Source: Clostridia bacterium (lineage in GTDB: Bacteria; Bacillota; Clostridia; Christensenellales; Aristaeellaceae). Taken from it: a DNA stretch of 59,885 nt. The position numbers and the translations under genes are program-made. Positions 11,296 to 58,373 of this stretch are shown here, piece after piece (positions within the stretch are counted from its first letter, which is position 1; each line of letters begins with the position of its first letter). The DNA is taken from positions 1 to 59,885 of the forward strand of contig JAUMVG010000013.1 in the NCBI GenBank assembly GCA_030530315.1. Direction: 5' to 3'. The notes under the pieces were generated by a model, which saw nothing but the letters and a program-made list of their open reading frames with translations, was not told the origin of the DNA and did not search any database.

Positions 11296-12072
11296 TCATT
11301 GTGCGCTGTGAAAATAATCCGCAGCAACGATACCAAACAGTCCAAACAACTCTTGATTTGTATCATGAGAGTCATCTTCTATATGGGCATCATAGTTAAA
11401 AAACGACCCGTTCACAAAAAAGCGCGGGCAACTATCCGTGGCTGGATACAAGGTATATTCATTGCCATTTGTCGTGGTGACAATCAGCTTTGCGTATCCA
11501 AACGGACAACCGGAGGACTCTGTCAGGACAGCGCCGCAGATGATAGCCTCAAGCGTCGCAAGCTTGGCAGTGTCTTCGATGATGATAGGCGCGTGTTTCT
11601 CGCCGGTATAATACTCGCCGTCGAACAGTTCCGCGCGAGTGATTTCCAGATTGCGCAAATCATCCGGGTCGAGCGGCTGATAACCCCTTTGGTCAAGAAG
11701 GTTTAACACATAATCCATAACGCGGGAATCCTGCGCTAACCAGATGCCAATGCTTGCGTCATTAACGCGTATCCAGCCGTCACCGCGCAAAAAAGCCGTA
11801 TATCCATTATACTCAAGCGTTATCTCGCAGATTGGCGCAGCCCGATCCGGCCATGCGCCATCATAGTCGGTCATGTTGCGAAACTCGATCGCGTCAATCA
11901 GCGCAAGTAATTCGTTTTGAGCCGTTTCACTTGGGACAAAACTATCGCTTCTGCCGCACAGTTCTGCAGGGAAATAACTAATCCTCAGAGAATGCATGTT
12001 GCCTTCTGCGTTAGCAGTAAGATTACAAACCAGTATAAACACTACTATAAGCTTCAGTAACATTTTTCTCAT
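11296..12072 (-). CDS. Secreted hypothetical protein
   Basis: This 258-residue protein has a clear signal peptide (about 1-23, ending CNLTANAEG). The mature part alternates strands and helices with four Cys, but no known catalytic motif is recognised. Residues around 45-60 (ETAQNELLALIDAIEFRNMT) and 85-120 suggest an accessory envelope domain. The ATG at 12072 follows GGAGGAG. It stands alone between sigma pairs 3 and 4 on the opposite strand. It could belong to the response of one of the neighbouring sigma factors, but nothing in the sequence proves it. Confidence 0.65.
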   Translation of the reverse strand: MRKMLLKLIVVFILVCNLTANAEGNMHSLRISYFPAELCGRSDSFVPSETAQNELLALIDAIEFRNMTDYDGAWPDRAAPICEITLEYNGYTAFLRGDGWIRVNDASIGIWLAQDSRVMDYVLNLLDQRGYQPLDPDDLRNLEITRAELFDGEYYTGEKHAPIIIEDTAKLATLEAIICGAVLTESSGCPFGYAKLIVTTTNGNEYTLYPATDSCPRFFVNGSFFNYDAHIEDDSHDTNQELFGLFGIVAADYFHSAQ

Positions 12073-12277
12073 ATCAAATCTCCTCCACCGTCAATTTGCT
12101 TATTAGACGTTTTAACGCTCATTTTGTTCCAGAAAGTGGAATTTTAGAAAATAGCGCATAAAACACGTATGTAAAAAGGCATGACTAGTTATGACTATCA
12201 CTTATTATGGATAAATATATCATCTTTGCAACTATTTTCGAGTCTGTATTGTATAATAGGTGAAAGGGGGGATGAAC

Positions 12278-12790
12278 ATGGAGCTGTCTCCGGCGCGCAG
12301 AGACGGTGTCATAGAAGCTATGAAGCGGTACTCATCCATGGTCTATCGCCTTGCATACGCGCGGACGCGCAACCATGAGGACGCGGAGGATATCTATCAG
12401 GAGGTGTTCCTGAAGCTGGCGAAGGCGGACATTTCCTTTGAGAATCAGGAGCATGTGAAGGCATGGTTGCTGCAGGTGACGGTCAATTGTTCGGTGAATC
12501 TCTTTCGAAGCGCATGGCGGCGACATGTTCAGCCGGTCGAGGCGCTTCCGGAGAGGGCATCTCCAAGGGATGACGATGATCGCTATGAAGCGCTGAACCA
12601 GGCGTTGGATATCCTGCCCGCCCGCTATCGCGCCGTCATACACCTATATTACTATGAAGAAATGTCCGTGGATGAAATATCGGCTGTATTAAACACCAAA
12701 CCCGCTACGATCCGTTCCCGCCTCGCGCGGGGCCGGGAGCGGCTGAAGCGGGAATTGACACAGAACAAGGAGGCGAATCCGAATGCTTAA
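12278..12790 (+). CDS. ECF-type RNA polymerase sigma factor 4
   Basis: This 170-residue protein has region 2 (MVYRLAYARTRNHEDAEDIY, QEVFLKLAKAD, WLLQVTVNCSVNLFRSAWRR) and region 4 (LPARYRAVIHLYYYEEMSVD, EISAVLNTKPATIRSRLARG). It is the clear paralogue of sigma factor 3. The start is the ATG at 12278, eight bases after AAAGGGGG; an ATG at 12272 sits too close to that site. A perfect TATAAT lies at 12252-12257, but no convincing -35 is seen at normal spacing. It overlaps the next gene by eight bases, as pair 3 does. Confidence 0.88.
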   Translation: MELSPARRDGVIEAMKRYSSMVYRLAYARTRNHEDAEDIYQEVFLKLAKADISFENQEHVKAWLLQVTVNCSVNLFRSAWRRHVQPVEALPERASPRDDDDRYEALNQALDILPARYRAVIHLYYYEEMSVDEISAVLNTKPATIRSRLARGRERLKRELTQNKEANPNA

Positions 12791-34164: not shown

Positions 34165-36663
34165 TTAATCCGTTATGAGTGCGCAGCGGAACGTGACCTT
34201 CACGTCCACATCCGCCGGGCCGAGCGTGAGCCTGAACCCGCCGTCCGAAAGCCGGCTGTCATCGGCAGAGATGACGCCGTATCTGTCCTCATCCATCCGC
34301 AGCCATTCCCACTGCAGATGAGCGCTGACCCCGAAGGTCGCCCTGAGCGCGGTCAGGTTTTCAATGATCTTCTTGCCGTAGTGGACGGAGACTGATAGTA
34401 CTGTGGAGACGTTGTTATCCTTGAACACCGTGCCACGGCTTGAGTCGATGCGCAGCACGGCAGGCGTGGCGTCTTGCATGGCATCTTCCACGGTATCATC
34501 TACGGTGCCGACCACCAGCTGAATGAAGTCCTGGGACTGAATGACTGACGTGTTCAGCTGGTCGATGAAGGCCTGCCGGGCAAACAGCTGATCCACGTCG
34601 ATGCGGGCTGCATCGATCTGGTTGATCAGCGCAAAGGTGCCCAACAGACTGCTGGTATTGATGTTGGAGGCAGTGATGGATGTTTCCAATATGACCCGCC
34701 CGCTGTCCGTCTGCCCGGCGTCAATCTCCTGCTCGGTGACGGTGGTGAGCGTGCCGGTAACGTTGCCGCTGCTGTCCACGTCGATGCTGTAGTACTGGCC
34801 ATTGCTGGCCTTGATACACAGGTTACCGATGGACGCGCCGATCATCTGGGCATACTCCACCGCCAGGTTTCGGATAAATACCTGCCCGGCTGCGCCGTAG
34901 TCCAGGTTCATGGACTGCGCCAACAGATGCCGGATCGTCGCCGCGTCGAAGGTTGCCGTACCGCAGGTGATGACGGTGAATGCCGCCAGCGCTGCTGCCA
35001 GCGAATCCGTCTGGATGTCGGCGGCGGTCAGGGAGGCAACCTTGATTGCGCCCGCCTCAATCGCCCCGGCGTTCAGGCTGTTGATGGTCGCTGCTGCAAT
35101 GTGGGCAAACTCAATCGCCGCCGTCTGGATATTCGCCGCACTGATAGCCGCGTTCTGGATATGAGCGTTTCCGATAGCCGCTTCCTGTATCTGAAGCTCA
35201 CCGACCGCACCCTCCTGAAGCTGGCCGATGCCTACGGAGCCGAGCGCCAGCTTGCTGCCGGAGATGATGCCGGAGGGAAGCTGCCGGGAGGAGATCAGGC
35301 TGGCTCCCACGGTATCCTCCACGGTGCCGAGCGTCATCTTCTCATACTGCCGCGTCAGACAGTTGTAGGTGTAGGCCGTCATCCGCATGGAAACTTCCAC
35401 GCCGACGCGCTTTGCGATGACACGAACTGTGTCCCCCAGGAAGATGCTCTGCAGGAAGCTGTACTGCCGGTATTCCTCGGTCTGTGTGACATCGATGAAC
35501 TCCACGGTCACGGTTACGGCAGGCAGGTCGCAGCCCTTGTCATACTCCGCCTGCGCAGCTTCCCGCATCTGTGTGTAACAGGCAGCTTTCGTCTTTTTCT
35601 TCTTTCCCTTGGTGACCTCTTTGCAGTCGGACACGGCAAGATGAATCCATTTCGGCGCGGGATAACTGGCGACGTTCGGACTGTCGATGTAGACCTCCGG
35701 CAGGTACAGCACCTTGCCGTCCTTGTCCTCGCCGGTGGGCATGATGCGCGTGACGACGTCGGACAGATCCACATCGTACTTGATGCCCGTCAGGTTCTTC
35801 CCCTGCCGGATCTGGATGCCGGTATCGCTCCCCACGCGCTCGACGACGAAGACGTCAAACCAATCCCGCTGAAGCTCACCTCCATAGAGCTCCGCAATGC
35901 CCTCGTCGCCCAGCAGGCACTCCACGGGATTCTGATTCTCATACAGGACTTCCTTCGCCGTAGAGGAAAGATCTGAATAGAACGTGAAATCGTGCTCGGA
36001 GAGGCATGCCGCAGAGAGCTGGTCCACAACGGTCTTGCCGGTGGTCGTCTCCAGCGCCTCCAGTTTCTTGACCATGTTCTCTGCAAGGTCATAAAAAATG
36101 TGCCGGGCGTAGGCGGTAATCTTGTCCAGTTCCGGCACGACGCGATAGATGCGGAAGGGCTGGTCTCGCAGCTGGCGGGCCTCGATGACCTCCCCGGCGG
36201 CATCCGCGTAATCGGAGGTGTTTCGCACGAAGGCCAAAGACGCGGAGGGCATGTAGCCGCGCCTGCCGTCCGGGCACACCACTTCCCACAGGCTGCTGGT
36301 GGTCTGCTCCAGGACGATGACCTGCTTGCCCTTCTTGTACTTGCCCAGCGTCTTGTACTTTTTCGCCGTGGACGAGCGCAGCGCCAGCGGATTGCGCTTG
36401 GTGTTGATCTTGTAGACGGCCTTGCCCTCGCTGTACACCTTGTAGGACAGGGCCACCTTTGGCGTCACCCCGGAAGGCACCGGGGCGCGGATAATGTAAC
36501 CCTCCACCAACCGACGCCACTTGCCGACCTCGTCCAGAGGGTGAACGATCTCCAGCTCAAATTCGCCGTTCAGCGTCTCCTTCACCAGCGCGGAAGACGG
36601 GGACAGCGTGCCGAGACCGTTGCCGGAGAAATCAGTGCAGTCAGGGGCATAGACGCAGAGCAT
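34165..36663 (-). CDS. Tal-type tail protein / prophage endopeptidase tail with inserted SH3 domain
   Basis: This 832-residue protein forms the tail tip hub behind Dit. The N-terminal part (1-85 and ~150-460) matches the siphophage Tal/endopeptidase tail pattern (LNGEFELEIVHPLDEVGKWR, then VVTRIMPTGEDKDG and LGDTVRVIAKRVGVEVSMRM). An SH3-like domain is inserted at about 92-148 (LRSSTAKKYKTLGKYKKGKQ, then WEVVCPDGRRGYMPSASLAF). Residues ~490-590 form short repeats (QEGAVGELQIQEAAIGNAHI) like a beta-helix shaft. The C-terminus is an Ig-like tip. ATG at 36663 after GAGGAGG. Confidence 0.85.
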   Translation of the reverse strand: MLCVYAPDCTDFSGNGLGTLSPSSALVKETLNGEFELEIVHPLDEVGKWRRLVEGYIIRAPVPSGVTPKVALSYKVYSEGKAVYKINTKRNPLALRSSTAKKYKTLGKYKKGKQVIVLEQTTSSLWEVVCPDGRRGYMPSASLAFVRNTSDYADAAGEVIEARQLRDQPFRIYRVVPELDKITAYARHIFYDLAENMVKKLEALETTTGKTVVDQLSAACLSEHDFTFYSDLSSTAKEVLYENQNPVECLLGDEGIAELYGGELQRDWFDVFVVERVGSDTGIQIRQGKNLTGIKYDVDLSDVVTRIMPTGEDKDGKVLYLPEVYIDSPNVASYPAPKWIHLAVSDCKEVTKGKKKKTKAACYTQMREAAQAEYDKGCDLPAVTVTVEFIDVTQTEEYRQYSFLQSIFLGDTVRVIAKRVGVEVSMRMTAYTYNCLTRQYEKMTLGTVEDTVGASLISSRQLPSGIISGSKLALGSVGIGQLQEGAVGELQIQEAAIGNAHIQNAAISAANIQTAAIEFAHIAAATINSLNAGAIEAGAIKVASLTAADIQTDSLAAALAAFTVITCGTATFDAATIRHLLAQSMNLDYGAAGQVFIRNLAVEYAQMIGASIGNLCIKASNGQYYSIDVDSSGNVTGTLTTVTEQEIDAGQTDSGRVILETSITASNINTSSLLGTFALINQIDAARIDVDQLFARQAFIDQLNTSVIQSQDFIQLVVGTVDDTVEDAMQDATPAVLRIDSSRGTVFKDNNVSTVLSVSVHYGKKIIENLTALRATFGVSAHLQWEWLRMDEDRYGVISADDSRLSDGGFRLTLGPADVDVKVTFRCALITD

Positions 36664-36690
36664 GAAGGTTCACCTCCTCTGATGGGTATA

Positions 36691-36750
36691 AGAAAAGCGC
36701 CGCCGAAGCGACGCGTAGTTGCGTAAAACATCTCGTAAAACGGGAATTTA
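36691..36750 (-). repeat. Boundary element A (~60 bp) upstream of tal
   Basis: This stretch shares the hairpin arms GCGCCGC/GCGACGC and the block ACATCTCGTAAAACGGGAAT with 46930-46990. It lies between the flavin cargo and the tal ribosome binding site. Confidence 0.7.
36693..36714 (-). terminator. Terminator downstream of the flavin cargo
   Basis: On the minus strand GCGTCGC, loop TTCG, GCGGCGC, then TTTTCTT. A UUCG-capped GC-rich stem of this kind is very stable. It ends the ApbE transcript and would also cut off read-through into tal. Confidence 0.8.
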
Positions 36751-36851
36751 CCTATTGACCAAGGAGGCTCCCAGTTCAAATACCTTCCTGCATTCCTGCG
36801 GAAATACCATCTCATGGCGCTTATATTTCCTCACTCGTTCACTTCAATGGA

Positions 36852-38021
36852 TTAGCGGCGTGATAACACATAGTCCGGGTCCGTCAACGTCAAACCGGGT
36901 AGTGAACTGATGACTTCGTAGGTTTCTACGCCGTCCCGGAAGCTGACCAATGATGCCTTCTTCTCTCCCCTGTCCTCCAGCCAGTCCGCCGCCTCGCCGG
37001 GCCCCATCACGAGCAGCGCAGTCGTAAGCGCGTCGCATAGGGCCGCGCTTTCGCCCAGCAGCGTCGCGCCGGCAAGTCCACTCTGCACACCCGTTTCATC
37101 GGGCATGTTGATGGGCCAGCCCATGCGCGGGTCGATTATGTGGCAATAGGTCACGCCATCGACGGTGAAGCCCTGGCTGACGTCTACACTGGTGGAAACG
37201 CCAATATCTCGAACGGGCAGGGTCGCGTAGTGCGCATCCCGGTTTTCGGTGGCACGCGGCTTCGTGAGCGTCAACTCGTAGAGGCCATCCTCCGTCGGGC
37301 GTGCCATCAGCTTCAGCGAGCTTCCCCCGCAGACAAAATGCCCCAGCGCAAAACCATTTTCCCTAAGGAGCGCAATCACCCGGTCACAGGCGTACCCCTT
37401 TGCGATGCCGCCCAGGTCGAGCTGCGCCTGAATGGTCGCGCCGTCGATCTCCACCGAATCGGTTCTCTTACACAGCCAGGTCTCGCCGTCCCGCTCGAAC
37501 ATCTCTATACCCTCCATGCCCACCAGCGGCAGGAGCTGTTCGATGTGTCGTGGATTGGGCAGGGGCAGTTTTCCGTTGACATATTCGCGATCATAGGGCT
37601 GCGTCGGGCGATAGAAATAGCTGTTGAAGCGCGGTGTAAAACCCCAGATATCCACCAGGGGATAGATCGTGGGGTCATATAGCCCTTCCGTCAGCACATA
37701 GGCCTCGCGGGCGATGGTCATGAGCTCCGCCGTTATTGATGACACGGGCAATTCACCGCCGCAGGGAAGGGCGTTGAATCGCGCAATATCGCTATCGGGC
37801 TCGGACACTGAAACCGCAGATTCGATTTCTCCCAGCAACGTCTTGACCTGCCTCCAGACCTGTTCAAAGGCCTCCTTTTCATCTTCCTCGACGTAAAGGC
37901 AGAGAACGCTGACCGTGGAAAAATAATCCATCGTCTGGTGGGACATGCGGACAGTCTCCGCGCACGCGCAGTTGGCTAGCAGTACCGTACACAGCAGACA
38001 AAGACACAGCTTTTTGATCAT
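36852..38021 (-). CDS. apbE: FAD:protein FMN transferase, exported
   Basis: This 389-residue ApbE enzyme takes FAD and attaches FMN covalently to a Thr of exported flavoproteins. It has a signal peptide with a Cys (LCLLCTVLLANCACAE), so it could be a lipoprotein. Key motifs are QLDLGGIAKGYACDRVI (about 222-238, FAD and magnesium site), ISTSVD-like GVSTSVDVSQGF and YCHIIDPRMGWPI (about 302-314). The gene follows the nitroreductase-FMN_bind gene, a likely substrate. A hairpin terminator lies between them. ATG at 38021, seven bases after GGGGG. Non-phage gene inside the tail operon. Confidence 0.92.
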   Translation of the reverse strand: MIKKLCLCLLCTVLLANCACAETVRMSHQTMDYFSTVSVLCLYVEEDEKEAFEQVWRQVKTLLGEIESAVSVSEPDSDIARFNALPCGGELPVSSITAELMTIAREAYVLTEGLYDPTIYPLVDIWGFTPRFNSYFYRPTQPYDREYVNGKLPLPNPRHIEQLLPLVGMEGIEMFERDGETWLCKRTDSVEIDGATIQAQLDLGGIAKGYACDRVIALLRENGFALGHFVCGGSSLKLMARPTEDGLYELTLTKPRATENRDAHYATLPVRDIGVSTSVDVSQGFTVDGVTYCHIIDPRMGWPINMPDETGVQSGLAGATLLGESAALCDALTTALLVMGPGEAADWLEDRGEKKASLVSFRDGVETYEVISSLPGLTLTDPDYVLSRR

Positions 38022-38045
38022 TTTTCAACCCCCATTGACAGCGGG

Positions 38046-38075
38046 AAAAGCGCCGCCCACGAGGAGCGACGCTTT
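38046..38075 (-). terminator. Terminator between the flavoprotein and apbE genes
   Basis: On the minus strand AAAGCGTCGC (38075-38066) pairs with GCGGCGCTTT (38056-38047), and T residues follow. The arms match those of the hairpins at 36693 and 46929. Confidence 0.75.
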
Positions 38076-38093
38076 AAGGAATACAGAAACGGA

Positions 38094-39245
38094 TTACTTT
38101 CCAGCCTGCTCAAGGGCGCTGCGCACGGCGGCCTTGATGGCGTCGGAGGCCATAGTAGCGCCGGCGATGCCGTCCACATCCACGGACTGCGCCTCTACGA
38201 TGGCGGCGGGCAGGGTGTTGATGGCCTCGTCAGCCACGCCCTCGGTCTCGCTGTGCTCGACGATGTTCACATCGGTGATCGCGCCGTCAACGACGGTGAC
38301 CTTCACCTTGATGGGACCATTGTTGCCCTGGGCAACGCCCAGATACTCGTTTTCACCCAGCTCGATGTCGGTTTCCTCAGCCTCGGCCTCGGCGGCGTGC
38401 TCGGCGGCATAGGCCTCGCGGGCAGCGATGGAAGGCGTGGGATTCTCGTTCGGCACGCCATCCCAGATGGCCCAGTTGTCCGGACGGCCGTGCAGGCTGC
38501 CCCAGGTTTCCACGGATTCGTCCTTCACGGGCTTGCCCACGACGATGGCACACACGAAGATGCAGTTGCCGGAGACGGGATAGACCCACTCGTCGTCAGG
38601 CTCAGTGCCGTAGTGGTTGTACCAGCTCAGGGCGCGCTTGTAGTCTTCCTTGACATAGCGGTTCATAGACTGCCAGCCGAACTTCGGCGGGGTGTCATTG
38701 GGCAGGTCAACCTGGGCATACTCGCCGTTGATCGCGCCACAGTAGTGGGTGTAATAACCCAGAGACGCGGCGGCCATCTCCAGCAGACCGCATGCCATGC
38801 CGGCATCATAGCGAGCCTGGTAGCTCCAGCCGTAATAGCCATTGCCATAGGGGGAGACGTGGCCCTCTTCCTCGGTGAGCAGATGGTCGGCCATCACCAG
38901 GATGGTGACGGTGCCCTCGGTGGCCATGTCCTCCGGCGGGGCGACCTGATCGCCAAGGATCTTGCGTTGTTCTTCGACATCCTCCACGGCGATGAAGAAC
39001 CACTCGGTGCGGGAACCGGCGCTCTGCTGTTTCATGGCCATGCTGAACATCTTCTCGAGGTCCTCATGGGTGGGCTTGTCGGCGGGATCGCTGGACCAGT
39101 GGCCGTTTTCGACGGACACCCACAGGTCGCTCTCGTTGTACCAATCGATCAGACCAGACGGATCGAAGGCGGACTCGGCCAAGCTCACGATGGGCGTCAG
39201 GCTAAGCGCGAGTACCAGAAGCGCGGCAATGATGATGCGTTTCAT
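38094..39245 (-). CDS. Secreted nitroreductase-like flavoprotein with FMN_bind domain
   Basis: The protein has 383 residues, with a signal peptide (1-24, ALLVLALSLTPIVSLAES). Residues ~30-250 follow the nitroreductase fold (MKQQSAGSRTEWFFIAVEDV, ARYDAGMACGLLEMAAASLG). Residues ~300-380 are an FMN_bind domain (YLGVAQGNNGPIKVKVTVVD) ending in DGIAGATMAS, the site where ApbE links FMN to Thr (here Thr364). An Ala/Glu linker joins the parts. It thus probably carries one bound and one covalent flavin outside the cell and may pass electrons to an external acceptor (inference). ATG at 39245 after AAAGGAG. Confidence 0.85.
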   Translation of the reverse strand: MKRIIIAALLVLALSLTPIVSLAESAFDPSGLIDWYNESDLWVSVENGHWSSDPADKPTHEDLEKMFSMAMKQQSAGSRTEWFFIAVEDVEEQRKILGDQVAPPEDMATEGTVTILVMADHLLTEEEGHVSPYGNGYYGWSYQARYDAGMACGLLEMAAASLGYYTHYCGAINGEYAQVDLPNDTPPKFGWQSMNRYVKEDYKRALSWYNHYGTEPDDEWVYPVSGNCIFVCAIVVGKPVKDESVETWGSLHGRPDNWAIWDGVPNENPTPSIAAREAYAAEHAAEAEAEETDIELGENEYLGVAQGNNGPIKVKVTVVDGAITDVNIVEHSETEGVADEAINTLPAAIVEAQSVDVDGIAGATMASDAIKAAVRSALEQAGK

Positions 39246-39289
39246 GGTCATTCTCCTTTCATCTTGTGGTTCCAAACCACCATGTCTGG

Positions 39290-39318
39290 AGTATACCAAT
39301 TCCCATGCTCTATGGCAA
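39290..39318 (-). promoter_or_regulatory. Promoter of the secreted flavoprotein gene
   Basis: On the minus strand TTGCCA (39318-39313), 17 bp, TATACT (39295-39290), with TGG just before the -10 (extended -10). About 45 bp before the ATG. Confidence 0.75.
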
Positions 39319-39343
39319 TTATCAAAAATGCACACTTATGAAT

Positions 39344-39363
39344 ATTTACACATATATGTAAAT
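39344..39363. promoter_or_regulatory. Candidate TetR operator
   Basis: ATTTACA (39344-39350) and TGTAAAT (39357-39363) are 7-bp inverted arms six bases apart. They sit between the TetR gene and the flavoprotein promoter, 25 bp from the -35. Confidence 0.5.
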
Positions 39364-39371
39364 TTATATAA

Positions 39372-39923
39372 TTAATCCAGCAGATAAGGTCGCAGGATCA
39401 GCGGCATGTTGGCCTCGCAATTCTCCAGGAATTCTTCTTCGGTCATGCCGCACCGGCCAAAGACATAATCGAAATGTACCTTCACCAGGCCGAACACGTA
39501 GATGCGCAGGGAGAAATCGACCTCCTTCGATACCTCCGATAGGCCGCTTCGACGCAGGAGGAACGCCAGCGTTGTCTTGTAGGCGGTTTCCGCGTGAATA
39601 CGCTCGAAGGATTCAGTGCCGTAGACGTTTTCAAAGGCATTGCGCAGGAATACCTTCAGCGATTCATAGAGCTTCAGACCGTCGCGGAGATAATCCATAT
39701 AGTTGTAATTGTCAGACAGCCGCTTTTGTTGGATTTGATTCGCCTGTTCCTCTTCGATATAGGCCATCAGGGCGTAGATATTGGGAAAGTGGTTGTAAAA
39801 CGTCTTTGCAGACATACCGCTTTCCTTGGCCAGCAAGGTCACCGTGATCTTACTGACTGGCATTCGGTTTGCCAGTTCCAACAATGTCTCGGCGAATATT
39901 TCCTTCGTGGTTCTCTTCTTCAT
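39372..39923 (-). CDS. TetR/AcrR family transcriptional regulator
   Basis: This 183-residue protein has the TetR DNA-binding domain at 8-55 (IFAETLLELANRMPVSKITV, LLAKESGMSAKTFYNHFPNI). The C-terminal helical domain (70-180) would bind a ligand and form dimers. It lies between the flavodoxin-ferredoxin gene and the secreted flavoprotein gene on the same strand, 18 bp after the former's stop. The palindrome at 39344 is a likely target. The signal is unknown; in redox islands such proteins often answer to a quinone or toxic electron acceptor (inference). Confidence 0.88.
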   Translation of the reverse strand: MKKRTTKEIFAETLLELANRMPVSKITVTLLAKESGMSAKTFYNHFPNIYALMAYIEEEQANQIQQKRLSDNYNYMDYLRDGLKLYESLKVFLRNAFENVYGTESFERIHAETAYKTTLAFLLRRSGLSEVSKEVDFSLRIYVFGLVKVHFDYVFGRCGMTEEEFLENCEANMPLILRPYLLD

Positions 39924-39941
39924 GGTTGATTACTCCGGGCT

Positions 39942-40703
39942 TCATGCATTGGCAGCGATGATGTCCTTCAGGCTGACGTGTTCGTTGCGGAAGCGTTTTG
40001 TCGCCTTCTCCACGGGCAAGTGAATTGCGTTCTGCGGGCAGTTATGCAGGCAGGCATAGCAGACCTCGCAGTGGTCGGAGAAGGTCACCTTATCCTTCGT
40101 CACGATGATGTTGTTCGCCGGGCAGACCTTCGCGCAAATGCCGCAATGGATACAGGCATCATTCACGATGTAATCCAGCGCCATCCTCTTGTCGATGACT
40201 TTGGGAGCATGGTTCTTATGATACCATTCCATCTGTCCAAGCAGCTTATCAGTCAGCTCAACGCGTTGCTCTTTTCTCGCTGCAATATCGGCGCAGATTC
40301 GATCGAGCTGACCCTCTACGTCTTTCTCTGGCAGCTTGTCAATCTCTTCCTGCATGTCAAAGAATGGGATGTAATTATCCACCATAAGAACACCGCTGCC
40401 ATATTTCAGATCCCAGCCCTGCTCACGGGCAAGGACTTCGGCATGACCCAAGGAAGGCATATAGCCATACCCACAGGTCATAATAACAAAAAAGTAGTCT
40501 GTCGTGATCTCCGCCTTCTTCATGAAATCTAAGATCATGAAGGGCAGCTCTACTGCGTAGACCGGGCATACGATGCCGACAGCATCATCCTCGATTTCAA
40601 TCTTATCTTGCCGCATGAGCTGAGGGATAGATAGCAGCTTCCCGCCTATACGCCTCGCCACATACAAGCAGTTGCCAGAAGCAGTAAAATAGCATATCGT
40701 CAT
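39942..40703 (-). CDS. EFR1-type flavodoxin-ferredoxin protein
   Basis: This 253-residue cytoplasmic electron carrier has an N-terminal flavodoxin-like domain (1-150; YFTASGNCLYVARRIG is the FMN phosphate loop). Two [4Fe-4S] clusters lie near the end (CIHCGICAKVCPANNII at ~190 and CEVCYACLHNCPQNAIHL at ~217). It belongs to the EFR1 family of anaerobes. It opens the cargo operon (EFR1-TetR) and could feed electrons towards the exported flavoprotein, although no membrane link is encoded here. ATG at 40703 after GGAGG. Confidence 0.88.
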   Translation of the reverse strand: MTICYFTASGNCLYVARRIGGKLLSIPQLMRQDKIEIEDDAVGIVCPVYAVELPFMILDFMKKAEITTDYFFVIMTCGYGYMPSLGHAEVLAREQGWDLKYGSGVLMVDNYIPFFDMQEEIDKLPEKDVEGQLDRICADIAARKEQRVELTDKLLGQMEWYHKNHAPKVIDKRMALDYIVNDACIHCGICAKVCPANNIIVTKDKVTFSDHCEVCYACLHNCPQNAIHLPVEKATKRFRNEHVSLKDIIAANA

Positions 40704-40750
40704 GTGCTTTCCTCCACACAATTACGATTTGCACACATGTTCTGACATCC

Positions 40751-40759
40751 AGTATACCA
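40751..40759 (-). promoter_or_regulatory. Extended -10 promoter of the flavodoxin-ferredoxin gene
   Basis: TGGTATACT on the minus strand, about 48 bp before the ATG. No good -35 is seen, as is usual for extended -10 promoters. The same nine bases precede two other cargo units. Confidence 0.6.
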
Positions 40760-40789
40760 TATTAGCGAATCCAAAGAAAGGCCATTCCG

Positions 40790-41491
40790 CTACAAATACC
40801 GCCAGTTTGGCTCAATGACCACCTCGCTCACACCGCCTGTCCAGCTGATCAGATTATTTCCTGGCTTCAACACAGGGAAATCTCCATCCATCTTCTCGTT
40901 GAGCAGGATCTTGCCCTTATAGGCTTCCTGGATGACGCTGTTCAGCACAACGCTGTCCACAATGCCCTCAAGCTCCACAAAGGCGTCATTGATGATGAGC
41001 GTGATGTCGCCGCTGCCATAGACGTGGATGATAGGTTCCGAATACACGCTGCCGGGGTTCACCACCACGGCGCTGCCCGTCGTGATCGTCACTTCGGCGG
41101 GATTGCTCACATACCAGAATGGCGGCGAGCAGCGGAAGTTCACGGCGAAGGAGCGATGTGGATTGCCCCGGAGAATCTTCTCAAACGGGATCCGGTTGCT
41201 GACGCGGGCATGGTAGAACCCGCCGGGACGGTTGGCAAACGTCACCGTTCCGCCGCCCTTCAGCCATGCCGCGATGGACGGTATGAGCGCGGGTTCGCGG
41301 ATGAAGCAGGTGGCGGTCAGCGTCAGGTCGTCGTACACGTCGTCACCCTCCAGCGTGGTCAGACTTCCCGGCCTGCCGGGGATGGTCGTCTGCTTGGAGC
41401 GCTCCTGTGGTATCGTGATGGGCGGCTGCTCGGAGACAAAGATGCCGTACTCCGTGCAGCGCACCCCATTCCATTCAAACCAGTCGTTCAT
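40790..41491 (-). CDS. Distal tail protein (Dit, SPP1 gp19.1-type)
   Basis: This 233-residue protein forms the hexameric ring that joins the tail tube to the tip. The N-terminal half has the Dit signature (WFEWNGVRCTEYGIFVSEQP, TTIPGRPGSLTTLEGDDVYD, LTATCFIREP). The C-terminal galectin-like half includes SNPAEVTITTGSAVVVNPGS and KPGNNLISWTGGVSEVVIEP. It lies directly after the tape measure, the normal place. Its usual next neighbour, tal, is 4.1 kb away because the flavin cargo intervenes. ATG at 41491 after AGGAGG. Confidence 0.9.
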   Translation of the reverse strand: MNDWFEWNGVRCTEYGIFVSEQPPITIPQERSKQTTIPGRPGSLTTLEGDDVYDDLTLTATCFIREPALIPSIAAWLKGGGTVTFANRPGGFYHARVSNRIPFEKILRGNPHRSFAVNFRCSPPFWYVSNPAEVTITTGSAVVVNPGSVYSEPIIHVYGSGDITLIINDAFVELEGIVDSVVLNSVIQEAYKGKILLNEKMDGDFPVLKPGNNLISWTGGVSEVVIEPNWRYL

Positions 41492-41502
41492 GTGCATACC
41501 TC

Positions 41503-44500
41503 CTATGCCATCCGCAGCCCGCGTCCGCGCTGCTGCGTCCGGGTGAGCGTTGCAATCTCCACGGCCAGATCGTGGATGTCACGGTCGCTGCGGATATAGA
41601 AGCTGTTCCCGGTCAGGTTGACGCTGCTATCCTGCCGGATGGTCTGCCTGTTGTCGTTATGGGTGTTCCCAAGGACGATGCCACCCTGCGCCTCCTCGGT
41701 GAGATACCGGGCGGCGTTGCGGATGATCTTCGCCTGTTCCTTCTGGCCTTCGAGGAAGCCTTCGCCCATGCCCTTCATGGCCATGAGGCCCACCTCGTCC
41801 CGGAAGACAGCGGATGGCGAGTGGATGGCCAGCGCACTCTTCGCTGCCGATATCGCGGCCTGCGCCACACGCACAGCGGCAGAGATCACCCCGGACTGGC
41901 CGGCACTGATACCGGAAGCGATGCCGGAGGAGATGGCCGTGCCGATTGCGCGGGCACTGCTGGCGGCGGTTGCTGCCTGCGCAGCGAGGGCAGCGGACAG
42001 CGCCCCCATAAGATTGGACGCTGCCGTTGCACTGTCGCCCGCAAAGCTGTATTGCGTCATGCCCTGACCAACACCGGCGGAGACGTCATTGCCAAGAGGC
42101 ACCATGCGCTGCGCCGGGGACTGGCTCTGCAGGGAACCGCGATACGCGCCTTCCAGATTCCCTGCCGCTGTGGCGGTGTCTCCGGAGAAGTCATACGCCG
42201 CTGCGCCCTGGCCGACACCGGCGCTGGCATCATTACCGACCTGCGGCATGACACCGGCAATCGCTGTCTGCAGGGATGTTGCCAGTGTTGAGGCGTCGCC
42301 TTCCCAGCCATACTCCTGCATACCCTGGGCAATGGCGGAGCTCACGTCGTTTCCCACACCAAGGTACTGATCGGCGGCGCTCACCAGATCGAGGATTTCC
42401 TGAAGCTGCGTGGCGTATTCCTGTGCCGTCGTCGCGTCCAGCTCTCCACTGTTCAGCGCCTGCCACAGGTTCAGCGCGTAATTGGCCACCGCCTGCATGT
42501 CGTCCTCGCGATAGGACAGGTCGTCTATCATCTGCACCAGGTCGCCCTGCTGGTTCCTGAGCGCCTGATCCATGCCATTCATATTGGTATCGGTGCCCGC
42601 TTCCTTGAACTCCTCGACCTTTTGGCGGTATTCCTCCAGCGCGGCAGCGGCGTTGTTGATCTCCGTCACGCTGTCATGGACGCTGGTGGTCAGCCAGCTG
42701 AAGGATGTGTCCTTCAGGGGCTTGTCCTCATAGACGACCTTCGTCTCCTCGACAGCCTCCTGGGTTCCGACCTCGGGTGTGATGATGACGTGCAGCGTGC
42801 CGTCTGTATCATAGGCGATGATCGTTTCGGCGGTCAGCTTTTCGGCGGGAACGACGTTGACAGGAATCTCCTCGCCGTTATAATAGAAATGGGCGTTCTC
42901 GTCGCCGAGAACATCTGTGGGGTTGTCGTACTTCTCTCCGAGCCGCAGGATTCCGTCCACCTTGATGGGATTCCTGGCCAGCACCTGATTCAGCGCCGTC
43001 AGATCATACCCGGAGATGGACAGCTTGCTGGTGGGCGTTGGCACGGTTGCGCCGCTGTCATCATAAGATGAAATGTAGCCCGTCAGGGACTGTGCCAGGG
43101 CGGACTTGTCGCAACCGGTCGCCTCAGAGAACTTGTTCACCAAGGCCTCCACCTGATCTGGCGTCAACGCGGACACATCCACACTTTCGGCCTCCAGGTA
43201 CTTCACGACCATGGCGGTCACATCGTCCGGCGTCAGCGCCGTGGTGAGCGCACCACCTTCAATCTCCTGGTAGGCCAAAACAAATGCGGTCACGGCTTCC
43301 GGTGTGAGCCCGCTTGTATCCACACCCTCTTTTTCGAGGTACTGGTTGACATAGGCCACGATCTCATCCGGCTTGAGGGTGCTCATGTCAGCACCCTCCG
43401 CCATCTCCTGATAGGCGGAGACCATGGCAGTGACGTTTTCGGGCGTCAGGCCGGACACATCCGCGCCGGTGGTGGCTTCCGCGTAGGTCTCCACATACGC
43501 GATGATGCCCTCCGGTGTCAGTGATGTCTTGTCCGCGCCTTCCGGCTTTTCGGTGAACCGTTCAATGACGGCATCCACCTTGATCTGCTGCCGGGCGGCG
43601 TTTTCCTGCTCCTGTATGCCCGCGATGATGGCATCCGTGGTGATCGCGCCGGGGTTGGCGGCGAACTCGTCCCAGTTGGCCTGAGCGCCGGTCATATCCA
43701 GCTCCGTGGCGATCTTCAGGACTTCCTCGGAGAGCCCTTCGCCGAACATGGAAGCCAGACCTTCGAGCGAAGATGAATATTGGCTGGTGAACTGCTGGAT
43801 GGATGCCAGCTGCTCCAGCGCCGTGGATACATCGATCTCCGGGAACAACGCCTGCACCTCTTCCATGCTCATCCCGCTGGTGAGCAATTCGGAGATCTGC
43901 GTGAGCACACCAGCGTATTCGGTGAGGCTTCCTTCATCCAGTCCGGTCGCCGCGTTCTTCACAGCGTCCAGCGCCTGGGCGGCCTGATAGGAATCCTCGC
44001 CGTAGGTCTTGACGGCGGCGTCATAGGCGGTGAGCTTCCCGGCAAGATCAGCCAGCGTATCGCCGGTCTGCTGCATGCCTTCATCGTTCCACACAGGATT
44101 GACCAGCTGCGCCAGCGTCTGGGCGTATTCCCGAGTAGCGGCAAGACGGCGTTCATTATAGCTGGTGTTCAGATCGTTCAGTGCGGCCTGCTTCTCCGCG
44201 CCATCCTCCATGAGCTGGATCAGGGCGTACTCGCTGTCATACTGTGCATCGATTTCGCTGTTGATCGCAGACAGACCCTGGGCGGCGGCGACCATGGCGT
44301 TCTGGTACACGGACACATCCGCATCCTGTTGACCACGGGCCTGCGCACGAGCGACCTCCGCCTCCACCTTGTCGAGAATGGTCTGGAAGCCCTCGGTCTC
44401 GCTGTCCGGCTGCAGCTTATACTTGATGATGATGGCTTCACGGTCGTCAATAAGCTCCTGAAGCCGAATCTTTTCATCATCGGTCAGGTAGCCGTTCTGG

Positions 44501-46902: not shown

Positions 46903-46928
46903 GAGGATTCACCACCTATTTTGAGCAT

Positions 46929-46953
46929 TAAAAATGCGCCGCTAACGCGACGC
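46929..46953 (-). terminator. Terminator downstream of the DUF218 cargo gene
   Basis: On the minus strand GCGTCGC, loop GTTA, GCGGCGC, then ATTTTTA. The arms equal those at 36693. Confidence 0.75.
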
Positions 46954-46990
46954 AGGTCGATTTATACATCTCGGAAAACTGGAATTTGCA
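46930..46990 (-). repeat. Boundary element B (~60 bp) upstream of the tape measure gene
   Basis: This stretch matches element A (36691-36750) in the hairpin arms and in ACATCTCGGAAAACTGGAAT. It lies between the DUF218 cargo gene and the tape measure ribosome binding site. Confidence 0.7.
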
Positions 46991-46998
46991 CGATTTCC

Positions 46999-47808
46999 TT
47001 ACTGTTTGAGCGTTAACTCATTCAATTCCAGAACGACTTCGGACATGACATTGGCACCATAGCTAAGGAACGATGACGGTGCGGGCAGTCGCAGGATATC
47101 TGAAAATCCCGTGCGCTTTGCCGTCTGAACAGCCCTGTCCATGTGATAATTGCTGCTGATCAATACGACAGGTCGATCGGGGTCGATAATCTGCGCTGTG
47201 TTCCGGAAATTGTCTTTGGTGCTTGCCGCCTGATCCTCCAGAATCATCCGATCTTCCGTCACCCCACGGTCAATCAGAATATCGCACATGACGGCTGCTT
47301 CCGTGCGACCTGAAACGTCATCCGCGTTGCCCCCGGTCAGAATCAACTGTGCTTCCGGGTATTTTTCCAGATACGTTTGGGCGGTGTTCAGTCTTGCCAA
47401 CAGATCGTCTGTCGGTTTTCCGTTTTCCAGCGCCAGTCCAAGTACGATTGCATGATCTGCCTGGCCCGCATTGTTTATCATGCTGCCGCAGATCACCTTT
47501 CCGCAGAAGAATAGGATCACCACGGTGAGAACAACAACGATAACGCGCAAAGCCCAGCCGGCAATCCGAACGGCAGTGGGTTTCCACCGGGTAAAGAGAC
47601 TGAAACGGATATCAAGCGCGAACAGCAGCAGGATCGTGCAAAGGATGACCTGGTATTGAAAAACATCCTGATAATCCGCTTTCAGGACAACGGCATTGAT
47701 TTTATGGAGCATGACGATAACCACGTCAGCAAAGAGAAGAATGGCCAGCACAAGCAGAATGTCACCAATGATCCTTCTGGCGCGGGAAGGCGTATTTACA
47801 GCTTTCAT
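46999..47808 (-). CDS. YdcF/DUF218-family membrane protein (cargo in tail operon)
   Basis: This 269-residue protein has three membrane segments (about 15-35, 50-68 and 80-105) and a DUF218 domain outside or at the membrane face (115-265). The domain has HAIVLGLALENGKPTDDLLA, LILTGGNADDVSGRTEAAVM, LEDQAASTKDNFRN and VVLISSNYHMDRAVQTAKRT, the usual conserved Gly, Glu, Asn and His positions. DUF218 proteins (SanA, YdcF, ElyC) act in envelope maintenance, with ElyC tied to peptidoglycan precursor lipids; the chemistry is unsettled. It is not a phage structural gene, yet it separates the tail chaperones from the tape measure. ATG at 47808 after AGAAGGG. Confidence 0.87.
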   Translation of the reverse strand: MKAVNTPSRARRIIGDILLVLAILLFADVVIVMLHKINAVVLKADYQDVFQYQVILCTILLLFALDIRFSLFTRWKPTAVRIAGWALRVIVVVLTVVILFFCGKVICGSMINNAGQADHAIVLGLALENGKPTDDLLARLNTAQTYLEKYPEAQLILTGGNADDVSGRTEAAVMCDILIDRGVTEDRMILEDQAASTKDNFRNTAQIIDPDRPVVLISSNYHMDRAVQTAKRTGFSDILRLPAPSSFLSYGANVMSEVVLELNELTLKQ

Positions 47809-47854
47809 TTTTTCCCTTCTTCAAATTCCGAGTTGAGCACCTGTTTCTGCATCC

Positions 47855-47863
47855 AGTATACCA
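47855..47863 (-). promoter_or_regulatory. Extended -10 promoter of the DUF218 cargo gene
   Basis: TGGTATACT on the minus strand, about 47 bp before the ATG, followed by GGATG as at 40751. Confidence 0.6.
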
Positions 47864-47875
47864 CATGAAAAGCCA

Positions 47876-47913
47876 TGAGAAAAGACATTTTCCATAAGAA
47901 ATGCCCTTTCTCA
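47876..47913 (-). terminator. Imperfect hairpin at the end of the tail chaperone gene
   Basis: TGAGAAA (47876-47882 on the plus strand) pairs with TTTCTCA (47907-47913), with further partial pairing inside. It overlaps the frameshift-product stop and could end the upstream phage transcript ahead of the cargo promoter. Confidence 0.35.
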
Positions 47914-52986: not shown

Positions 52987-53640
52987 TTACGCGAAATTGA
53001 GCCTCGCGTATTCTCCGTGGTACCGCCGAGCAGCAGCATCATAGGCATGTGCTGCAGCTACAGGATCACTGAAATAGCCGAGCGAAATGCAGTGCTTTTC
53101 TACACTGATACGAGCCTGATATCTTCCAGACACATGTCTCGTCACCCCCTTAAATCCTGTCCTGTTGTTTTTCCGCATTGCAGAGTTTTGTGCATTTTGT
53201 GCACACGTCACCAAGCGTAGGTTGCTTCGTCTATTATCAGCTGGATCTCCGTTGATGTGATCAACATATTTTGTCGTTTCAAATCCCATTAACAGACGAT
53301 GGAGTTTGAAATGGCCATATTCCTTACACCAGCTTCTAACGTAACCATGCTCGTCTACACTCCAGCTGTACCTCTTGATTAATGGGTAGTCGTCAGTGTC
53401 GAACAAGAACGATCTGCCATTGGGAAGAATACAGCGCATGCATCCATCTGCTAAAACGAATGATTGACAACGACCGCAGCTTCTTGTATGGTTACTTCGT
53501 AAGTGTGATGTGGTAACTTCCACTATATTTCCACAGTCACATCTACAAATCCATCTGTAGTTTTTCCCATTCTGCATTGCTGCAGGTTCGATAACTGTCA
53601 GAGAACCAAACCGCATGTCCTGTAGATCAATTCTTCTCAT
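52987..53640 (-). CDS. HNH homing endonuclease with AP2 domain
   Basis: The protein has 217 residues. An N-terminal zinc ribbon (WICRCDCGNIVEV, SCGRCQS) precedes the HNH nuclease core (FKLHRLLMGFETTKYVDHIN, then GDPADNRRSNLRLVTCAQNA). An AP2 DNA-binding domain ends it (GFKGVTRHVSGRYQARISVE, LGYFSDPVAAAHAYDAAARR). It is a free-standing homing endonuclease inserted between portal and protease. Its first 14 bp overlap the portal 3' end. It may spread itself among related phages. Confidence 0.88.
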   Translation of the reverse strand: MRRIDLQDMRFGSLTVIEPAAMQNGKNYRWICRCDCGNIVEVTTSHLRSNHTRSCGRCQSFVLADGCMRCILPNGRSFLFDTDDYPLIKRYSWSVDEHGYVRSWCKEYGHFKLHRLLMGFETTKYVDHINGDPADNRRSNLRLVTCAQNAQNSAMRKNNRTGFKGVTRHVSGRYQARISVEKHCISLGYFSDPVAAAHAYDAAARRYHGEYARLNFA

Positions 53641-54988: not shown

Positions 54989-55330
54989 TTACAATCCGCT
55001 GCCGGTTTTCTTGTCATGGCAGTCCTTGCACAGTGCCTGCCAGTTATCCTGATCCCAGAACAGATACTGGTCTCCCCGGTGCGGAATGATGTGGTCCACC
55101 ACCGTCGCAGCGGTCAGCCTGCCTTCCTTCTGGCATTGGACGCACAGTGGATGCCGTCGCAGGTATGCTGCCCGCGCCTCGCGCCATTTGCGGTCATACC
55201 CGCGAAAAGCGGCCCCACCGCGCAGACGGTCCGCACTCCATTTTATGTGCTCCGAACAGTACACCTGGTCTTGTTCGCAGAAACCCACACATCCGGGATA
55301 GCGGCAAGGTCTTCTCGGTTTCATCGGCAT
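54989..55330 (-). CDS. HNH endonuclease of the packaging module
   Basis: The protein has 113 residues. Paired Cys (CRYPGCVGF, CSEH) at the start and CVQCQKEGRL plus CKDCHDKKT later bind zinc. The HNH core is TVVDHIIPHRGDQYLFWDQD NWQALC, with the two conserved His. Small HNH proteins near terminase and portal are required for packaging in HK97-like phages. ATG at 55330 after GAGGTG. Confidence 0.88.
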   Translation of the reverse strand: MPMKPRRPCRYPGCVGFCEQDQVYCSEHIKWSADRLRGGAAFRGYDRKWREARAAYLRRHPLCVQCQKEGRLTAATVVDHIIPHRGDQYLFWDQDNWQALCKDCHDKKTGSGL

Positions 55331-55340
55331 GCAGCTCACC

Positions 55341-57618: not shown

Positions 57619-57777
57619 TTATTTCCATCTCGTATTGAGAATCACCACAATGGAGATTCCCATTATTATCAGAATAACGAGCATCCATTTCCAGCAGTCC
57701 ACCAGGAACATGTCCACCTGGACGACTGCGCACATGATTTTCTGCTCAGTGCTCATCTTGATCACCATCCCCGTCAT
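57619..57777 (-). CDS. Small membrane protein near terS
   Basis: About 52 residues, nearly all a single hydrophobic stretch (WMLVILIIMGISIVVILNT). ATG at 57777 overlaps the HNH stop (ATGA) with AGGGTG eight bases before; ATG at 57756 is an alternative. Function unknown. Confidence 0.55.
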   Translation of the reverse strand: MTGMVIKMSTEQKIMCAVVQVDMFLVDCWKWMLVILIIMGISIVVILNTRWK

Positions 57778-58373
57778 GCGCTTTGCACCCTGCCAATAGA
57801 AAACGCCTCGCAGATGGATAATTCCGCGAAGCGTGAACATCTTTCCGTGACGTTTCTCCTGAGCCAGTCCGGAGCGTCGGGAACATCATTATACCGTCCG
57901 TACTCTCCAAACATACATTCCATCCCGACGTTCCTCGCCTGGACTGCCTGTTCAAAAGCCTCATAATATCCGAGATGGATTTCATGCTGCCCGATCTTTA
58001 TCCGCGCCCGGTATTTCTTCCTTGGAGGATAATAGCTGACTCCCGAGACACCGGATGTGTTGTTCTTCTGCACCGGCTGATTGCACTGATTCTGCTGGTG
58101 CGTCACAATCCTCAGATTACACATCCTGTTGTCCAGGGTGTCGAGGTTGATATGATCGACCTCAAGTCCCTTCGGGCAATCCACAAGATAATCATGGAGC
58201 TTCTTTCCAAAGCGGTTTGTGATGTAGAGGGGCTTCTCAGGATCGTTGTAGTTGCGATACCAGTTAAACGCGCTGATTGCGTCGAACTTGTCCCTGTCAA
58301 ACATAAAGACAGTGCCATCCGGCAACTGCCCATATCCTGTGGAACCGTCGAAACGATAACTGATATTGCTCAT
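57774..58373 (-). CDS. HNH homing endonuclease with AP2 domain (second copy type)
   Basis: The protein has 199 residues. The HNH core is KKLHDYLVDCPKGLEVDHIN, then LDTLDNRMCNLRIVTHQQNQ. The AP2-like part is SGVSGVSYYPPRKKYRARIK, then IHLGYYEAFEQAVQARNVGM. It is only distantly related to the one at 52987 and lacks its zinc ribbon. It overlaps the methyltransferase stop by four bases, which suggests a settled insertion. Confidence 0.87.
   Translation of the reverse strand: MSNISYRFDGSTGYGQLPDGTVFMFDRDKFDAISAFNWYRNYNDPEKPLYITNRFGKKLHDYLVDCPKGLEVDHINLDTLDNRMCNLRIVTHQQNQCNQPVQKNNTSGVSGVSYYPPRKKYRARIKIGQHEIHLGYYEAFEQAVQARNVGMECMFGEYGRYNDVPDAPDWLRRNVTERCSRFAELSICEAFSIGRVQSA

Follow-up and report, generated by a model that had tools for sequence, protein, structure and literature searches.

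The 59,885-nucleotide stretch of Clostridia bacterium DNA analysed here (hereafter the window; Aristaeellaceae, contig JAUMVG010000013.1) carries a redox island of four intact genes (positions 36852–40703) between two prophage tail genes, Dit and Tal. We put the probability that a temperate phage holds this island as cargo in an exchangeable moron frame at about 0.75. Between their tail genes, phages living in bacteria of the gut and rumen seem to hold a reusable promoter–terminator frame, within which unrelated host-type genes are swapped. As far as sequence comparison can tell, our analyses show that the frame is conserved in the clade, stands at several junctions around unrelated genes, and has had its cargo interchanged. 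The original prediction placed ApbE, a nitroreductase-like/FMN_bind fusion, a TetR-like regulator and a flavodoxin–ferredoxin between Dit and Tal on the minus strand, where all four are indeed found; it missed that they sit in a conserved, interchangeable frame, which recurs around a ydcF-like gene. To us the frame is more surprising than the enzymes. The acquisition and exchange by phages of genes that change their hosts have mostly been inferred case by case, and a conserved frame is a searchable handle: cargo can be found without gene names (as were three loci below, L193, L147 and L148), and gene exchange among co-resident prophages becomes open to direct testing.

The frame consists of an upstream element (U) and a downstream element (D), which, like the island and the genes bordering the slot, lie on the minus strand. 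The borders are Dit (distal tail protein; 40790–41497; phrog_33, E = 4.4e-36) upstream and Tal (prophage endopeptidase tail protein; 34165–36663; PF06605, E = 1.8e-20) downstream. U (40709–40784; model R1, 45.3 bits, E = 2.8e-13) lies between the Dit stop and the EFR1 gene and combines an extended −10 promoter with a dyad. The extended −10, TGGTATACT, is at 40742–40759, and its TG and three of six −10 positions are invariant in the eight-sequence seed; a degenerate copy of the dyad CAAATC-GG-GATTTG, a candidate operator, is at 40717–40731. D (36680–36752; model R2, 68.4 bits, E = 5.3e-13) is a conserved leader and hairpin terminator before the Tal start, with the hairpin GCGTCGC-TTCG-GCGGCGC at 36697–36714 followed by a T run. 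R1 (8 U seeds) and R2 (10 D seeds) were built from Dit–Tal slots of other phages only, with no window sequence, and each finds two strong sites in the window. The second pair encloses a YdcF/ElyC-like DUF218 protein (46999–47808, minus strand; PF02698, E = 3.1e-24), a second framed cargo in the slot between tail chaperone (TAC) and tape-measure protein (TMP), with U before the gene (47815–47890, minus strand; R1, 40.1 bits, E = 1.2e-11) and D before TMP (46919–46990, minus strand; R2, 53.5 bits, E = 1.1e-9). R2 also gave a weak third window site (E = 0.037). The genome-wide search scored 150 of 2038 candidates with R2 and 150 of 158 with R1; none of these was a further frame site at E ≤ 0.001, though a weaker copy could have been missed.

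In cargo-bearing close relatives, U follows the pattern CTTTC...TGnTATACTnG...CAAATCGGGATTTG directly 3′ of the Dit stop, and D the pattern AATTCCAGTTTGACGAGATG...GCGTCRC-loop-GYGGCGCTTTT just 5′ of the Tal ribosome-binding site. The D hairpin is 95.6% paired in a 10-sequence alignment, a value that falls to 23–67% when the partner strand is slid; its covariation is 0.215 versus 0.099 in shuffled alignments (reached in 2 of 500 shuffles), and one pair is changed on both sides in five of the ten sequences (AU/GC/UA). The island had been predicted to have its own promoters and terminators. Comparative sequence points to one conserved promoter element before EFR1 (40709–40784) and one conserved terminator after ApbE (36680–36752), which appear to provide the island with both signals, whereas a simple consensus scan of positions 36000–42000 gave 7 promoter-like sites against 3.2 ± 2.1 expected and 5 terminator-like sites against 4.9 ± 2.1; the scan was not used as evidence because its terminators were at chance level.

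We gathered 55 survey loci by Dit (34 on viral contigs, 18 in bacterial genomes, 2 phage records and the window), dropped seven with a truncated Dit or Tal (L021, L027, L028, L029, L047, L052 and L053) and grouped the remaining 48 into 40 clusters at 97% Dit DNA identity. The idea that Dit and Tal are normally adjacent held for 14 of the 40 clusters, in which the slot is empty (gap ≤34 bp), but not for the other 26, which have a larger gap (276–4126 bp); two loci with partial Dit matches, L038 and L056, are counted as filled, and the 276-bp gap of L056 contains no convincing gene. The slot was filled in all of the 13 closest loci (Dit ≥81% identical). The description of the island as cargo stood up to this comparison with related phages, in which the same slot is empty or otherwise filled. 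Among close relatives, some junctions are near-constant (MTP–TAC, 65–71 bp; Tal–fib1, 12–42 bp; fib1–fib2, 3–15 bp; six loci each), and TAC–TMP (six loci) and TMP–Dit (13 loci) are variable as well.

The cargo itself is diverse. A Pfam scan of 30 cargo proteins (filled slots L020, L022, L038 and L056 left out) gave no match for 13, and in the Dit–Tal slot identified an aminoglycoside 3-N-acetyltransferase (AAC(3)) family protein (Antibiotic_NAT, 287 bits; L009, 3584–4369), an EFR1-like protein (L005), SnoaL (L008), anaerobic ribonucleotide reductase NrdD (L010), Peptidase_MA under the cut-off (L011 and L039), GNAT with a membrane polyferredoxin (Fer4_5, 11820–12707; L040), RelB with ParE (L004), DUF6442 (L016), an AAA kinase-like protein (L035), ArsR with an ArsP permease (L044), KilA-N (L045) and an ECF sigma factor with an unmatched neighbour (L051); L013 has three open reading frames (ORFs) that by eye alone seem tail-fibre-like. 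Cargo of redox type is found in the slot repeatedly: Fer4_5 in L040, EFR1 in L005 and NrdD in L010. When cargoes were compared with each other (blastp, E 1e-4, ORFs ≥90 aa), different clusters shared only the L011/L039 (56%) and L016/L020 (76%) cargoes and, distantly, ferredoxins and two TetR stretches. We read the EFR1 genes of L005 and the window as separate acquisitions because the proteins are 26% identical; the alternative is a single diverged EFR1 lineage in both.

The frame recurs with this cargo. Both U and D are present in 11 of the 13 close loci (U is partial in L039); among 60 further loci, seeds included, R2 gave 23 matches and R1 17 at E ≤ 0.001, and R2 matched in at least 9 and R1 in at least 7 of the 28 genomes of the genus. 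Matches to a single element (D in L149 and L151, U in L150) were not counted as cassettes.

Recombination may act at the elements themselves, with breakpoints at the frame in one pair of loci and near it in another. L008 and L040 share a backbone that is 90.5% identical over 6.2 kb and carry unrelated cargo. Their homology is lost at the dyad and regained within D, with identities of 70/70 in U, 83/85 in D, 644/705 in Dit, 667/700 in the first 700 positions of Tal and 1773/2000 in the last 2000 of TMP. Across the ydcF cassette and its frame, the window and L011 agree at 99.5% of 1001 columns (99.6% for the protein), compared with 81.4% for TMP and 86.3% for the upstream genes, which shows, as a comparison of sequences can, a recent transfer of the framed block between phages. 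In L193, found by the U pattern alone, U stands right after the tail-chaperone region and is followed by a GNAT gene whose product is 65% identical (106 aa) to that of the first cargo gene in the Dit–Tal slot of L040; this cargo family follows U at two different junctions. In the TAC–TMP junction of L148, U and D enclose an ORF without Pfam match, and in TMP–Dit of L127 a PF00144-family serine hydrolase is followed by D, with a weak U (E = 0.0016). Finally, at L147 (genome G018, contig C30, 9687–10769), a strong U (51.9 bits) and D (63.2 bits) enclose a 292-aa ORF that looks secreted, has no Pfam match and stands next to an ORF that looks aconitase-like by eye; the 19 kb of this locus contain no match to 17 phage or cargo proteins of the window, and the site could be either a cassette that moved or what is left of a prophage.

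Under the exchangeable-frame explanation, U would make the cargo a separate unit expressed in the lysogen, D would halt the cargo transcript before the next virion gene, and late transcription would read through D by antitermination; cargo would be swapped by homologous recombination between the frames of co-infecting phages or resident prophages. The frame could instead go back to a single ancestral insertion of an ordinary moron with promoter and terminator that descended vertically, with its cargo replaced by illegitimate recombination and the frame itself not transferable. Morons, described in passages of PMC6316719 as originally complete transcription units added to a phage genome, are already known, and a frame at the same Dit–Tal place in 11 of the 13 close loci is what vertical descent predicts. 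This explanation seems unlikely to us, given that the same frame surrounds chaperone–TMP cargo (window, L011 and L148) and flanks TMP–Dit cargo (L127), that one cargo family follows U at two junctions and that the framed ydcF block appears to have moved recently. An internal late promoter and attenuator needed by the tail operon whatever its content would fit the position of the frame, on the coding strand inside the late operon, and its better conservation than neighbouring coding DNA in L008 and L040. Against it, none of the 18 loci whose Dit–Tal slot is empty gave a frame match at E ≤ 0.1, and the frame present around ydcF was not found in the short TAC–TMP gaps of L008, L039 and L041; we consider this highly improbable.

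We give very little credence to an assembly artefact, or to chromosomal genes in a decayed prophage. The window is the whole of contig C64 of a 3.58-Mb metagenome-assembled genome with an estimated contamination of 6.11%, the redox pair resembles chromosomal genes of the host family and redox cargo of this kind was seen only once, but the phage-specific frame is in register at both island ends and relatives carry other cargo between the same two borders. Moreover, the visible part of the prophage does not look like the decayed remnant that the original prediction had named as a possible undoing: it retains intact ORFs for both terminase subunits, the portal, the protease, the capsid, the tail, the holin and the endolysin. 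More doubtful than the exchangeable frame, and put forward tentatively, is the wider proposal that the frame is a mobile cassette system, with promoter–dyad and leader–terminator as exchange ends; host-type genes would enter, leave and change slots, even outside phages (G018), and a single dyad-binding regulator would control all the framed cargo of a prophage as one lysogeny regulon. If this is true, the phage tail operon holds a small reloadable gene-cassette array.

Several observations weigh against the exchangeable frame or its redox cargo as described. The source data are metagenome assemblies without reads, and the contig stops at 59885, before an early or lysogeny region is reached. 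Both copies of the dyad in the window are degenerate, and the covariation in the D hairpin amounts to one base pair: the number of doubly changed pairs (1) was equalled in 434 of 500 shuffles and that of extra pair types (5) in 268 of 500. Many frame matches in the close clade are model seeds or near-copies of seeds, the frame was not detected in two of the 13 close loci (L010, with NrdD, and L013), and most distant filled slots have a weak D and a weak or absent U, which means that other insertion routes exist. Likewise, the TAC–TMP slot also takes unframed cargo, since the L040 insert there is a hydrolase without frame match. The L193 contig ends inside the GNAT gene, before any D or TMP, and within TMP the window and L011 are likewise 98.5% identical over one 200-bp bin, so the exchanged ydcF tract may be longer, or there may be several tracts. 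For the cargo, PF00881 in the fusion protein scores 20.2 bits, below the curated cut-off of 23.5, and the redox set occurs in one phage only.

We further characterized the four island genes, which are transcribed in the order EFR1, TetR-like, fusion and ApbE, all from the minus strand. The first (39942–40703) encodes an EFR1-family flavodoxin with a 2[4Fe-4S] ferredoxin (NF038196, E = 1.3e-56, 192 bits versus a cut-off of 75); the ferredoxin part matches PDB polyferredoxins, and we judged the protein to be cytoplasmic, as no signal peptide was seen by eye. The second (39372–39923) encodes a TetR-type, DhaS-like regulator, an assignment that is weak because PF00440 (E = 2.3e-5) gives 24.5 bits versus a cut-off of 24; the TIGR02366 (DhaS-like) match (E = 1.7e-8) is far under the model cut-off. 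The third (38094–39251) was described as a secreted nitroreductase with an FMN_bind domain. A signal peptide is seen by eye, and the FMN_bind domain is clear (PF04205, E = 1.3e-16; PDB 8p2b, E = 4.5e-14), whereas the nitroreductase part is less certain: PF00881 (E = 8.8e-4) stays under its cut-off, the profile match of this region to PDB 5j62 is weak (E = 0.0047), and PF00881 reaches E ≤ 0.01 in five of 10 aligned members. The protein has nine relatives at 42–59% identity. The fourth (36852–38021) encodes ApbE, an FAD:protein FMN (flavin mononucleotide) transferase with a signal peptide (by eye); PF02424 (E = 9.4e-49) and PDB ApbE chains (5mgy, E = 4.1e-27) place it in the transferase family, and in an alignment with nine chromosomal relatives it keeps the DLGGIAKGYA, CHIIDP and SAALCDALTTAL stretches common to them.

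The predicted pairing of ApbE with FMN_bind is borne out, down to a candidate flavinylation site. The fusion protein contains DGIAGAT, whose predicted flavinylated threonine is encoded at 38154–38156 (minus strand); relative to D-x-x-[S/T]-G-A-[S/T], the motif given in PMC12052999, it keeps Asp, Gly, Ala and Thr and has Ala instead of Ser/Thr at position 4, as do several chromosomal relatives. ApbE would put FMN on the FMN_bind tail of the secreted nitroreductase-like enzyme, and the lysogen would thereby gain a flavin-wired extracytoplasmic reductase, with EFR1 possibly acting as a cytoplasmic low-potential electron carrier and TetR probably gating the enzyme genes. The proposal that the island confers extracellular electron transfer or reduction of nitro compounds finds no direct support in the sequence: PF00881 is under its cut-off, and the Pfam scan found no transmembrane electron carrier among the four island genes. 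Electrons would probably enter through host membrane complexes, since the island encodes none, and the lysogen may or may not achieve extracellular electron transfer in a strict sense. The host has an ORF of 946 aa with several FMN_bind matches within 3 kb of an apbE-family gene of its own (G000, contig C114, 45776–49055), from which we infer that a host partner for electron supply is available.

Further motifs in the island, both on the minus strand, are a candidate internal promoter before the fusion gene (TTGCCA-17-TATACT, 39290–39318) and a palindrome that could be a TetR operator (ATTTACA-N6-TGTAAAT, 39344–39363). The palindrome was rejected as a significant operator, its arms being as long in 71 of 1000 shuffles, and the frame dyad as a host-wide operator: CAAATCNNGATTTG matched in 13 of 28 genomes, with 0–4 sites each and no exact match in this genome. 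A single-sequence AlphaFold model of the fusion protein was discarded because its confidence (predicted local distance difference test, pLDDT) was 40.5, making it unusable. The idea that the redox set is a virion component was set aside because its relatives are chromosomal.

Those relatives belong to the host family. The nitroreductase-like domain was found at E ≤ 1e-10 in 13 of 250 family genomes including this one (best, 63%), and ApbE adjoins the nitroreductase-like gene in nine of the 11 chromosomal loci read, divergently in eight and co-directionally in one, which has a separate FMN_bind-like ORF; in the other two, the contig ends at the gene (L185) or no ApbE adjoins it (L192). Chromosomal secreted nitroreductase-like and FMN_bind domains beside apbE were seen in L183–L191 and L126, fused except in L126, where they are separate. 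At E ≤ 1e-3, none of the 11 chromosomal loci matched the window's Dit, Tal, TMP, portal or terminase. Because the pair is chromosomal in the host family and mostly divergent there, it looks like a captured family module, turned co-directional in the phage. In the genus the full-length enzyme domain occurs, among the matches listed, in only one of 27 other genomes (G005; partial in G010), and here a phage carries a secreted, apparently flavin-wired redox enzyme of its host's family. EFR1 relatives are common in the genus (12 of 28 genomes at E ≤ 1e-12).

Phage-borne ApbE/FMN_bind systems had been thought undescribed, and no account of one appeared in the titles and abstract beginnings covered; phage ApbE may, however, exist unrecognised, because a tblastn search with ApbE gave matches in 19 of 50,697 phage records (≤31.5% identity, except one 71-aa match at 38%), none of them annotated. 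In viral contigs, no relative of the fusion protein or of ApbE was confirmed by searches that reach close relatives only. FMN_bind gave nine matches among phage records, one of them annotated (Lactobacillus phage PM411), where the gene is near the record start amid mostly bacterial-type genes.

The frame bears some likeness to promoter early stem-loop cassettes (PeSLs), reportedly described by Arbiol in 2010 and Comeau in 2014. Here the promoter and hairpin stand at opposite ends of the cargo, unlike in PeSLs. Lambdoid morons and the PeSLs of T4 are the nearest known kinds. We know of no moron promoter–terminator pair that is shared and re-used around unrelated cargo at several junctions. PeSLs are presented in PMC4503421 as promoter/stem-loop elements that shuffle genes in T4-like phages; they share with the frame a conserved promoter and stem-loop in cassettes, said to mediate gene shuffling between related phages, but belong to T4-like phages and have early promoters, whereas here a temperate-type phage has an extended −10, host-type promoter and host-type genes in its tail operon. 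Like a moron, the island lies among late genes, is absent from relatives and has, by sequence, a promoter and terminator of its own. In PMC8238504 and PMC11334425, ApbE/FMN_bind extracytosolic flavinylation systems likewise pair ApbE with an FMN_bind substrate, as here, where both are apparently exported; here, in contrast, an enzyme is fused to FMN_bind and the set is phage-borne. Neither text contains a word starting with 'nitroreductase' or with 'phage', the latter a search that would miss 'bacteriophage' and 'prophage'. Passages of PMC9226167 report possible metabolic genes in temperate gut phages of the Ca. Heliusviridae/Heliusvirales, including an FMN reductase in a Roseburia prophage, and do not describe the frame, the slot or an ApbE cargo. 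Across the titles, abstract beginnings and passages covered, with subscription journals mostly outside, we found neither a shared multi-slot moron frame in temperate phages nor a phage-borne ApbE, which is weak evidence of absence.

The phage itself is of siphovirus type. The right half of the window is its late region, on the minus strand, with small and large terminase, HK97-type portal, Clp-type protease, capsid, tail tube, tail chaperone and TMP, followed by Dit, Tal, fibre-like genes (named by position only), holin and endolysin. The HK97-type portal, the Phage_capsid family, TerL_ATPase/TerL_nuclease terminase and Dit/Tal-type tail genes set it apart from T4-like phages. The nearest named phages, PV036454 and PV036419 (Dit 58–61% and Tal 50–59% identical), have Christensenellales hosts and carry the label Ca. 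Heliusvirales. Between the head genes lie HNH endonuclease-type ORFs (52987–53640, HNH_3; 54989–55339, HNH; 57774–58373, HNH_3), possibly homing endonucleases, and in the left half (3953–25050) several ORFs resemble, by eye only, sigma-factor/anti-sigma-like pairs.

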